DNA of 64,000 nt from Alicyclobacillus pomorum DSM 14955 (lineage in GTDB: Bacteria > Bacillota > Bacilli > Alicyclobacillales > Alicyclobacillaceae). Shown here one piece after another: positions 10,735 to 15,044 of the stretch (positions are counted from its first letter, which is position 1; each line of letters begins with the position of its first letter). The notes under the pieces were generated by a model. It saw nothing but the letters and a program-made list of their open reading frames with translations. It searched no databases and was not told the DNA's origin. The DNA is taken from NCBI RefSeq assembly GCF_000472905.1, contig NZ_AXAR01000003.1:168787-232786 (forward strand), given 5' to 3'. A program made the translations under genes and the position numbers.

Positions 10735-10939
10735 GACTGCGATGAAGCGTTTGGAGGAAACCGTGCGGAAGTTGGAGTCCGGAGAGCTATCGTTGTCCGA
10801 AGCCATCGAGCGTTATAAGGAAGCGATGCAACTCGTTCAATTCTGTCGCGGTCAGCTGGACCGTGCCGAATTGGAAATTGAGCAGTTGGTGGAAACGCAA
10901 GGCACGTTGGACAAGCAGTCCCTGAAGGAGGGCGTTTAA
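10700..10939 (+). CDS. xseB: Exodeoxyribonuclease VII small subunit
   Basis: 79 residues, normal for XseB. It is a helical-hairpin protein with the family segment FETAMKRLEETVRKLESGELSLSEAIERY (paraphrased by its key residues FE..M..LE..V..LE.G.L.L). It binds the long helix of XseA. ATG 10700 follows GGACGGGGAGG. The start lies inside xseA and the stop overlaps the ispA start, TAATG. Confidence 0.95.
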   Translation: MNEAFSQDLTFETAMKRLEETVRKLESGELSLSEAIERYKEAMQLVQFCRGQLDRAELEIEQLVETQGTLDKQSLKEGV

Positions 10940-11829
10940 TGGCGGTGAAACCCGACGTCGATGCGTATATCGCGGAGATGGGGCGAACGGTGACGGACTA
11001 TTTGTCCACGTTGTTTGCGAACCCAGGCCGCCCCGCCCGTTTGTTTGAATCGATGAACTACAGCTTGTTGGGGGCCGGGAAACGGCTGCGTCCCATCTTG
11101 TGCATCGCTGCAGCCGAGACGTTCGGCGTAGGTGTGGACAAAGTCCTGCCTGCCGCCGCCGCGCTCGAGCTGGTTCACTGCTATTCGCTGATCCACGACG
11201 ACCTGCCTATCATCGACAACGATGATTTGCGCCGTGGTCGCCCAACGAATCACAAGGTATATGGCGACGCGACCGCATTGCTGGCGGGAGATGCACTTCT
11301 CACGTACGCTTTCGAACAGTTGTCCCAGCCACTGGGCATCTCTGCGGACAAACAGTTGCAGATGATTCACACGCTCGCCCATGCGGCCGGGGCGTATGGC
11401 ATGGTCGGTGGCCAACAGGCGGACATTCTTGCCGAGCACACGGACGGAGACCTCGAGCTGCTGCAGTTTATTCACGTGCACAAAACCGCCAAATTGATAC
11501 AAGCGTCGGTTGTCATCGGCAGTTTGTTTGCCAATGCATCGAGTCAGGAGCTGGACGCCGTCGCGAAGTACGGGCTGTCGGTAGGTCTGGCGTTCCAAAT
11601 CGTGGACGACTGGTTGGACGTGGCAGGCAGCGAGGCGGAGATAGGTAAGCCCGTGGGCTCTGACGAACGTTTGCAAAAACTCACCTACCCGCGATTGGTC
11701 GGGCTGGAGAAGACGCGGGAATTGGCTGAATCGACCATGCAGGAAGGCGTTGAAGCGCTGACTTCAGCCGGCATCCAAGCGCCGTTGCTCGAGGCGATTG
11801 GTGAGTACGTTGTGCGGCGCACAAGGTGA
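10939..11829 (+). CDS. ispA: Polyprenyl (farnesyl/geranylgeranyl) diphosphate synthase
   Basis: 296 residues. It condenses isopentenyl diphosphate with allylic diphosphates to make farnesyl diphosphate for quinones, undecaprenol and hopanoids. First Asp-rich motif HDDLPIIDNDDLRRGRPTNH, second Asp-rich motif IVDDWLDVAG. Gln-rich and basic residues for diphosphate binding (GGKRLRP-like: GAGKRLRPIL) are present. Chain length specificity cannot be told from sequence alone. The gene is directly upstream of the OLE RNA, which is the arrangement seen in other OLE-bearing Firmicutes. Confidence 0.93.
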   Translation: MAVKPDVDAYIAEMGRTVTDYLSTLFANPGRPARLFESMNYSLLGAGKRLRPILCIAAAETFGVGVDKVLPAAAALELVHCYSLIHDDLPIIDNDDLRRGRPTNHKVYGDATALLAGDALLTYAFEQLSQPLGISADKQLQMIHTLAHAAGAYGMVGGQQADILAEHTDGDLELLQFIHVHKTAKLIQASVVIGSLFANASSQELDAVAKYGLSVGLAFQIVDDWLDVAGSEAEIGKPVGSDERLQKLTYPRLVGLEKTRELAESTMQEGVEALTSAGIQAPLLEAIGEYVVRRTR

Positions 11830-11903: not shown

Positions 11904-11912
11904 TGCTATAAT
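11904..11912 (+). promoter_or_regulatory. Extended -10 promoter of the OLE RNA
   Basis: TGCTATAAT: a perfect TATAAT (11907-11912) with the extended TGn just upstream. No good -35 is visible at the right distance (GTTCTG at 11884-11889 is weak), as is common with extended -10 promoters. The predicted transcription start is near 11919, seven bases before the first strand of the RNA's end-to-end helix. Confidence 0.7.
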
Positions 11913-11918
11913 TGTATC

Positions 11919-12515
11919 GACGTTTGGGTGGCGCAGTATTCTAGTCAACCGTCCGACTCTGAAGGCGGGGCTAAAAATCCGCCAAAGGGCACATCGATGA
12001 AGTTCCTGGTGTTGGCTTGAGGCGCCCAGCCTTGGGTTGATGCTGGGAGTTAAGAAAGTTGGGCAACTCGCAATGGCATGCGAGATCTGACCCAGCTTTC
12101 GCGGAGGCCCATGTCCGTGGCCTGCTTTTAAAGGAGGTTATGGCTTGGGGTATGAACCTGCATGCGGAGTCCATCTGTGTGCAGCGTAGCCTGCCTTGAG
12201 TGGTACTGAAGGATCACGGGAAACAGGCGTTTAGCTCCCCGGCCAGGGAGCGGCGCTGGTGCCGTGTGAAATCCGTGCTGCAAAAGAGGCTAGGAGTCGG
12301 CAACGGTTGTCGCGGAAAACGCCTAGACTGTACTTCAAGTGGCTCTTTGGGGATTATAGTGTGGACTAAGTGGTAATCCAGTCTGACTGATGGTGACACA
12401 GTCAAGGGATGCATAAAGGGAAACCGCCGGTGCGGCGACGCGCCGGTGCGTCCTTGGGAAAACCTACTGGACCTAAGCCACAGCGTTTACTCAAAGAGCT
12501 GCCACCCAGGATTTT
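11919..12515 (+). ncRNA. ole: OLE RNA (ornate, large, extremophilic RNA)
   Basis: A stretch of about 700 bases between ispA and oapA has no plausible coding frame but has its own promoter and heavy secondary structure. GGGTGGC (11926-11932) can pair with GCCACCC (12501-12507), joining the two ends of a ~600-nt RNA. Internal stems include GGCGG/CCGCC (11964-11968 with 11979-11983), a CTAGG/CCTAG helix around 12288-12326, and a GC-rich hairpin region around 12424-12450. Length, position between ispA and dxs, and the following membrane gene all match OLE RNA, known from extremophilic Firmicutes, which forms a membrane ribonucleoprotein with OapA and is linked to tolerance of cold, short alcohols and Mg2+. 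Exact ends are inferred; a covariance-model search would be decisive. Confidence 0.9.
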
Positions 12516-12536
12516 TCCTCTATTCGGGGGTACATA

Positions 12537-13130
12537 ATGAAAAGAACGACGTTGCGGGGTTCACTGCCGTTCATCTTCACGGTGTCGGTCATCTCCCTGC
12601 CTTTAAGTGGTGTGTTTGACACAGCCACTATTTTTTTAGACGAAGTTCGGTGGTATGTCGGGGCCCTGATTGTGGTTGGGATTGTACTCGTAGGGGCGTT
12701 GTTCGATATGCTGGGTGTGGCCGCGGCCGCTGCGAGAGAGACGCCGTTTCACGCGATGGCTGCAAAGAAAGTGTTCGGCGCGAAGCGGGCAATCACCATT
12801 GTTCGGAACGCCGAAAAAGTGTCCAGCGTGTGCAGCGACGTCGTCGGAGACATCGCGGGCGTGTTGAGCGGTGCCGGTGCCCTCGCTGTGTCGGTCCAAC
12901 TGAGTGATACTTTTCACGTGACAGGGTGGGCAAAGGAACTGACCACCATTGTGTTGACTGCACTTGTAACTTCGATTACTGTGGGAGCGAAGGCGATGGG
13001 AAAGACGTTGGCGATTCAGTCGCCGACGCCCATCATCTTGACGGCGGCGAAAATTGTCGAGACACTGTTCATCATTCCAGGCCGTCATCACAAACGTACC
13101 CGACAAACGGCACGTCGTTCCCGTTCATGA
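12537..13130 (+). CDS. oapA: OLE-associated membrane protein OapA
   Basis: 197 residues with about four to five membrane segments (roughly 10-27, 40-66, 101-121, 134-152, 163-182). It fits OapA, the integral membrane partner that binds OLE RNA. It carries the family's DxxxD motif as DVVGD at residues 101-105 and the segment DMLGVAAAAARETPFHAM, and ends with a basic tail (RHHKRTRQTARRSR) suited to contact RNA. The gene begins about 30 bases after the RNA's closing helix, so RNA and mRNA are probably made as one transcript. The biochemical role is unresolved; mutants of the Bacillus halodurans homologue have Mg2+-related phenotypes. Confidence 0.9.
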   Translation: MKRTTLRGSLPFIFTVSVISLPLSGVFDTATIFLDEVRWYVGALIVVGIVLVGALFDMLGVAAAAARETPFHAMAAKKVFGAKRAITIVRNAEKVSSVCSDVVGDIAGVLSGAGALAVSVQLSDTFHVTGWAKELTTIVLTALVTSITVGAKAMGKTLAIQSPTPIILTAAKIVETLFIIPGRHHKRTRQTARRSRS

Positions 13131-13157: not shown

Positions 13158-15044
13158 GTGTTCACGACGTATCTCGAACACGTAAACGCACCAGCGGACA
13201 TCAAGTCGCTGAACGTACAACAATTAACCACGCTGGCTCAAGAGATTCGCGGGTTCCTCGTCGACGCTGTGTCGCAGACGGGTGGCCACTTTGGCGCCAA
13301 TCTCGGAGTCGTCGAGTTAACCTTGGCATTACATAAAGTGTTCGACAGTCCCACGGACAAAATCATTTGGGACGTCGGACATCAAGCGTATGTCCACAAA
13401 ATCCTGACCGGACGCAAAGATCGATTTCCGACGTTGCGACAGTTTCAAGGTCTGGCCGGATTTCCAAAGCGCGGCGAAAGTGTGCACGACCAGTTTGGCA
13501 CTGGCCACGCCAGTACCTCTATCTCAGCCGGGCTAGGCATGGCCGTGGCACGCGATTTGGCGGGCGAAAAGTACAGTGTCGTCGCCGTCATCGGCGACGG
13601 TGCGTTGACCGGCGGCATGGCCATGGAAGCGTTGAACCACGCGGGTCATTTAGGCACCAATCTTCTGGTCATTTTGAACGACAACGAAATGTCCATCTCG
13701 GAAAACGTGGGTGCGTTGTCTCACTATCTCACGCGTCTACGCACGGACCCGACGTACTCCAGAGCAAAGTCAGAAGTGGAGGGCCTGTTGCGCAAAGTTC
13801 CGGCGATTGGACCAAAGCTGACCAAGACATTAGAAAAAGTGAAGGATTCCATGCGGCACCTGGTGGTACCCGGTCTCTTGTTTGAAGGGTTTGGGTTTAA
13901 GTACTTGGGCCCAGTCGACGGGCACGACTTGGAGGGCCTGCTGAAAGTGCTGGAAGACGCCAAGCGGCTGAAAGGCCCCGTCCTCATCCACATGGTGACC
14001 AGTAAGGGCAAGGGGTACGCCTCGGCGGAAAAGGCGCCCGACAAATGGCATGCGTGGCCGAGCGCGCCCAAACCAGGTGGGCCACCGTCTTATACCAGTG
14101 TGTTTGCGGATACGCTGAGACAACTGGCGCGAGAGATGCCGGATCTGGTTGCAGTCACGCCAGCCATGATCTCTGGGTCGGGGTTAACGAAGTTCGGCGA
14201 AGAATTTCCAGACAGGTTGTATGATGTGGGCATCGCTGAGCAGCACGCAGCGACGTTCTGTGGTGGACTGGCGGCAGCTGGCAAGCGCCCGGTATTAGCC
14301 ATTTATTCGACCTTCTTACAGCGTGCCTATGACCAGGTCATTCACGATATTTGCATCCAGAAGTTGCCCGTTCTGATTGCCGTGGACCGCGCTGGACTGG
14401 TGGGTCCAGACGGGGAAACCCATCAAGGCGCGTACGACGTGTCGTACCTCCGAGCCATACCGAACATTGTCGTGATGATGCCGAAGGACGAAAATGAACT
14501 GCGACACATGTTGTACACCGGACTGCACGTGGACGGGCCGGTCGCCGTGCGCTATCCACGAGCAGATGGCGTCGGTGTGGATCTGAGCGAGCCCTTGCGG
14601 AAGCTGAACATTGGGGAAGCGGAAGTGCTGCGCACAGGGGATGCTGCGGCGATTCTTGCCCTGGGTCCGATGGTGCAACTTGCCGAAGAAGCCGCTCGCC
14701 GGCTGGAAGAAGAGTACGGCGTGTCGACGACGGTGGTCAACATGCGGTTTGTCAAACCGCTGGACGAGGCACTCATCCTTCGGCTTGCCAAGTCCATGCC
14801 ACTCGTTACTGTCGAAGAAGCGGCTTTGGCGGGTGGTATGGGATCCGCCGTTCTGGAACTGCTCGCAGACCACGGTGTCGAGACGCGCGTACGTCGGCGG
14901 GGCATCCCGGATGTTTTTGTGGAACATGGAACACGGAAGGAACTGCTCCAACACATAGGATTAACTGCAAACGACATCGTTCAGGACGTGCTACATGTCA
15001 TCAAACGCGGCGAAGCATCCCGCATCGGGAGTCGACAAGCATGA
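13158..15044 (+). CDS. dxs: 1-deoxy-D-xylulose-5-phosphate synthase
   Basis: 628 residues, full length. It is the first enzyme of the non-mevalonate isoprenoid pathway and makes DXP from pyruvate and glyceraldehyde 3-phosphate using thiamine diphosphate. Motifs: [29 protein letters not shown], the ThDP/Mg site [18 protein letters not shown], and [18 protein letters not shown]. Start is GTG at 13158. It supplies the same pathway as ispA, with the OLE/oapA unit between them. The stop overlaps the tlyA start. Confidence 0.96.

Follow-up and report, generated by a model that had tools for sequence, protein, structure and literature searches.

The locus described here lies in a 64,000-nucleotide stretch of the Alicyclobacillus pomorum DSM 14955 genome, hereafter the window, and carries in order ispA, ole, oapA, and dxs on the forward strand. 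Among structured bacterial RNAs that have no assigned biochemical function, OLE RNA, the product of ole, is one of the largest; it is membrane-associated and known from many Gram-positive bacteria. Coordinates of the genes and of the parts of the RNA are collected in Table 1. The identities of xseA, xseB, ispA, and dxs were confirmed with NCBIfam and Pfam, and tlyA is the next gene after dxs. We take the wider order to be spoIIIA-like genes, accC, folD, xseA, xseB, ispA, ole, oapA, dxs, tlyA, recN, and spoIVB-like and spo0A-like genes, in which the names accC, folD, recN, and those of the sporulation genes were read by eye from the translations only. A sequence-only reading of the window had placed an OLE RNA and its protein partner between ispA and dxs, and these two genes indeed flank the ole-oapA pair.

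An extended -10 box precedes ole, matching the consensus TGnTATAAT and accompanied by a weak -35 element. In 30 of 30 relatives from the host family, this box stands 13-55 nt 5' of the conserved GGUGG core of OLE, compared with 0.3% in shuffled sequence. From the spacing, transcription of ole would be expected to start near 11918-11920. A plain two-hexamer promoter scan did not list the ole promoter because its -35 element is weak. The claim of a strong promoter at this position is upheld in part, through the conserved extended -10 box.

Table 1. Features of the ispA-ole-oapA-dxs locus, in positions of the window
Feature	Coordinates	Strand	Basis or remark
ispA, farnesyl diphosphate synthase	10939..11829	+	NF045485, 346 bits vs cut-off 275
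Extended -10 box of ole, TGCTATAAT	11904..11912	+	comparative search
OLE RNA, full length	11912..12521	+	RF01071, 541.8 bits
P1, 5' strand	11926..11932	+	pairs with 12501-12507; outside Rfam structure
P3/P3.1, 5' strand, 9 bp + AUU bulge	11933..11944	+	pairs with 12323-12331
L4 A-rich loop GGCUAAAAAU, putative dimer contact	11969..11978	+	role from PMC12286853, PMC12265935
P4a palindrome CACAUCGAUGA, putative counterpart of the mapped OapA-binding region	11990..12000	+	exact in 51/68; role from PMC12265935
J4a/5 kink-turn strand GAUGAAGUUCC	11996..12006	+	identical in 61/68 OLE sequences
L5.1 kissing loop CGCCCAG	12023..12029	+	identical in 65/68
L6.1 kissing loop AAUGGCAU	12072..12079	+	identical in 55/68
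J6/7, putative OapC site partner of J4a/5	12100-12108		role from PMC9723947, PMC12286853
L9.3 self-complementary loop CCGGCCAG	12239..12246	+	palindromic
P3/P3.1, 3' strand	12323..12331	+	pairs with 11933-11944
P12/P13 region, putative OapB-binding loops GGUGAC + GGCGAC	12384..12455	+	role from PMC9723947 and its references
P1, 3' strand, closes RNA	12501..12507	+	pairs with 11926-11932
oapA, OLE-associated protein A, 197 aa	12537..13130	+	DxxxD (D101/D105), basic, CNNM-like fold as modelled
dxs, 1-deoxy-D-xylulose-5-phosphate synthase	13158..15044	+	TIGR00204, 853.7 bits

Identity and structure of the OLE RNA

The noncoding stretch of about 700 bases that the sequence-only reading had assigned to OLE was searched with all Rfam models using cmscan. 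RF01071 (OLE) aligned over its entire length (model positions 1-616 of 616) with 541.8 bits and an E-value of 4.3e-156, where the gathering score is 50 bits, so that the covariance-model search named as a check in that reading gave a highly significant score, and the bounds given there proved correct to a few bases. No Rfam match other than OLE was found in the 64 kb window, and the 3.4 Mb genome holds a single OLE copy.

The dense pairing noted for this stretch was also found: 150 of the 158 standard pairs of the Rfam structure are formed when it is mapped on the window copy. Over 30 members of the host family the same structure reaches 91.2% pairing, and 61 pairs carry changes on both sides; in a control in which the partners were slid by 1-3 positions, the figures are 38-43% pairing and two-sided changes at 14-25 pairs. 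Conservation of individual loops and helices was counted in 68 diverse OLE sequences. The closing helix P1, which is absent from the Rfam structure, is paired in 99.1% with GC/AU/CG changes, and P3/P3.1, for which a membrane-spanning role has been proposed (PMC12265935), shows 99.7-100% pairing; being mostly invariant, this helix carries little covariation.

Alignment, helices, and loops all place P7/P8/P9 and the OapB site at P13 in the window RNA, features that are absent or shortened in OLE variants 1 and 2. We also weighed whether this might be an unusual or variant OLE, and rejected that reading on the full-model match and the covariation within the host family. There is nothing unusual in this copy, and its divergence from other OLE RNAs is ordinary sequence divergence. 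The 390-bit threshold for full-length OLE in PMC11332333 rests on a model different from the RF01071 model used here.

The loops to which functions have been ascribed in other species are likewise retained. Roles for the P13 loop, the kink-turn, L4, L5.1, L6.1, and L9.3 come from PMC12286853 and PMC12265935. The P13 loop GGCGAC occurs in 57 of the 68 OLE sequences and the CUAAAAAU portion of L4 in all 68, while L9.3 takes the form of several different palindromes across relatives. The kink-turn strand of J4a/5 forms the OapC site together with J6/7 (PMC9723947, PMC12286853). Assignment of the palindrome CACAUCGAUGA to P4a is our own reading rather than that of PMC12265935, and is accordingly put forward as a candidate. 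As judged from sequence, the window RNA keeps the dimer-contact loops, namely the A-rich L4, the L5.1/L6.1 kissing pair, and the self-complementary L9.3, and by analogy with the Halalkalibacterium halodurans literature it may dimerize through them.

OapA and the other protein partners

The gene that begins 15 bases beyond the end of OLE had been read as oapA, and the protein has what is expected of OapA. It adjoins ole and contains the DxxxD motif, of which D101 and D105 are invariant in 18 aligned OapA proteins (identity of the relatives to the window protein is 58-74%). Hydropathy indicates four transmembrane-like stretches and a borderline C-terminal one, K and R residues cluster at 77-94, and the net charge is +11; the predicted topology, four transmembrane segments with a basic cytoplasmic patch, would fit OapA. 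In the order sampled, OapA tracks OLE and occurs only with it, and no difference from known OapA was found.

The window protein has no PDB match by sequence and no Pfam or NCBIfam match above cut-off. Its best Pfam match is CNNM (PF01595), which all 18 of the aligned OapA proteins match; the window copy scores 19.2 bits, below the curated cut-off of 28.4. A structure predicted with AlphaFold2 (pLDDT 70.8, medium confidence) contains the helices. In the structural comparison its top four hits are all CNNM/CorC Mg2+ transporters, with Z 11.3-12.2 and an rmsd of 2.7-3.0 across 120-125 residues; an unrelated structure comes next at Z 8.6. These values are to be read with the caveat that helical membrane folds can reach Z near 12-13 through a common arrangement, and the comparison took in only chains ranked by Foldseek, which leaves room for folds other than CNNM. 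The model thus suggests that OapA is a small membrane protein of the CNNM/CorC fold, in agreement with the published OapA-CorB comparison (PMC11332333). Likeness to MpfA, CorB, and CorC extends to this modelled fold, a weak sequence similarity, and an inverse occurrence of MpfA with OLE, but the 197-residue OapA lacks CBS and CorC domains, carries DxxxD, and falls below the PF01595 cut-off.

The proximity of ole to oapA, which share a strand in an operon-like cluster, and an ole-oapA order that is kept in 30 of 30 loci (with a DxxxD-containing open reading frame in every one) would also suit a long structured 5' leader of oapA-dxs that acts in cis, for example on oapA translation, and releases no free RNA. 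We consider such a leader very improbable: the structure and conserved loops match an RNA detected as a species of about 630 nt in H. halodurans (PMC9723947), oapA lies away from ole in some species, and the distance between the two varies from 11 to 200 bases.

OapA, OapB, and OapC are named as essential in H. halodurans (PMC9723947, PMC11332333), and all three are encoded by the host. OapB is a 111-residue protein encoded next to infA, for which PDB 7k9b ('OLE-associated protein B') is a match at E 1.5e-21, and OapC is the YbxF protein between rpoC and rpsL, which matches the YbxF structures 3v7e (B. subtilis-type, E 1.7e-22) and 4lck (about 2e-22). A bS21 gene is also present; these three genes lie elsewhere in the genome, away from the ole locus. 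The complete set of essential partners, the intact oapA, the full model coverage, and an OLE score that is the highest among the 40 OLE-bearing genomes of the order together refute at the sequence level a decayed or non-functional OLE copy, to which we give practically no weight.

The OLE-OapA unit in the window is therefore intact, full-length, and of a known kind; we put the probability of its identity as such a unit at about 95%. It shares with the H. halodurans OLE RNP (RF01071) the full-length structure, the adjacent oapA, the OapB and OapC genes, the OapB loop, the kink-turn, the dimer loops, the isoprenoid gene neighbourhood, and a promoter of its own. It differs in its host, which belongs to the genus of Alicyclobacillus contaminans and is not an alkaliphile.

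Distribution of OLE, OapA, and MpfA

OLE was found in 40 of 41 genomes of the host family and OapA in all 41. The one apparent loss, in genome G025, is an assembly break: the contig boundary cuts through ole and leaves the final 89 nt of the RNA. Neither OLE nor OapA occurs in the sister family within this order (OLE 0/18, OapA 0/18). Full-length MpfA-type CNNM transporters above cut-off show the reverse pattern, being present in 5 of 41 genomes of the OLE-bearing family and in 16 of 18 of the sister family (Fisher p 2e-8, a figure that ignores shared ancestry). The host genome has no MpfA-type CNNM transporter, and two genomes have neither the OLE nor the MpfA system. Since the contrast is between two families, it may reflect a single evolutionary event, and it restates in compact form the OLE/MpfA exclusion already published. 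OLE and a full MpfA-type CNNM occur together in G004, G007, G008, G014, and G029, exceptions to exclusion of which four fall in one genus.

In five of six sister-family genomes examined, dxs follows ispA after a gap of about 280-450 bp that contains neither ole nor oapA. No Rfam family matched in the ispA-dxs gaps of OLE-less relatives, and hence there is no decayed OLE there. A small conserved open reading frame of about 70 codons (...TVGIKMQQTIASAE...QYRQQ) lies ahead of dxs in five of the six sister-family loci (L131-L136), at the place taken by ole-oapA in the host family.

Across a sample of the phylum, OLE is present in 284 of 398 genomes; among the 15 listed genomes that belong to the class but not to the order, none has it. 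A GTDB-wide survey counts 2,822 OLE-bearing Bacillota genomes and probably already covers the host family (PMC11332333). Seven genomes had OapA-like loci with no nearby OLE. An OLE-free OapA was rejected for five of these genomes (L072, L073, L077, L080, and L081), which carry OLE elsewhere, and the other two (L078, L092) come from MAGs that may be incomplete.

Two OapA genes are found in each of Caenibacillus and Pullulanibacillus (L073:2995-3570 with L097:868-1545 on the minus strand; L072:2956-3576 with L098:737-1396). In both genera a divergent OapA directly follows ole and precedes a dxs-like frame, and a second, unlinked OapA is nearer the Alicyclobacillus form (264-280 vs 166-169 bits), a state that may have arisen by duplication or transfer. 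Some Clostridia MAGs (L077/L100, L080/L101, L081/L099) carry oapA without an adjoining ole and have OLE elsewhere in the genome; oapA was not found in their OLE flanks, several of these contigs being short.

The extended -10 promoter of ole most likely drives transcription of OLE RNA in this organism, which is probably also made as part of a larger ispA-dxs transcript. The RNA would then fold as in other species and, by analogy with the H. halodurans literature, dimerize through its conserved loops, be held at the membrane by OapA, and bind OapB at P12/P13 and OapC at the kink-turn. By the same analogy, this membrane RNP may have a part in stress that involves Mg2+, cold, alcohol, or carbon source; a Mg2+-linked stress-response device is a less certain extension of this view. 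That OLE and its partners could replace CBS/CorC function is an idea raised in PMC11332333. Applied to the order sampled, it would make the ole-oapA RNP and full-length MpfA alternative solutions to one task, with OLE and its partners acting as an RNA-made regulatory module for the putative CNNM-fold Mg2+ transporter OapA in place of CBS/CorC domains, a proposal that we regard as possible but rather doubtful.

The interest of the locus lies in the contrast with the sister family rather than in the window copy of OLE. One family of the order has OLE and OapA and hardly any MpfA; its sister family has MpfA, lacks OLE and OapA, and usually carries the small ispA-dxs open reading frame. This clean division offers a close comparison for asking if the RNP and MpfA can stand in for one another.
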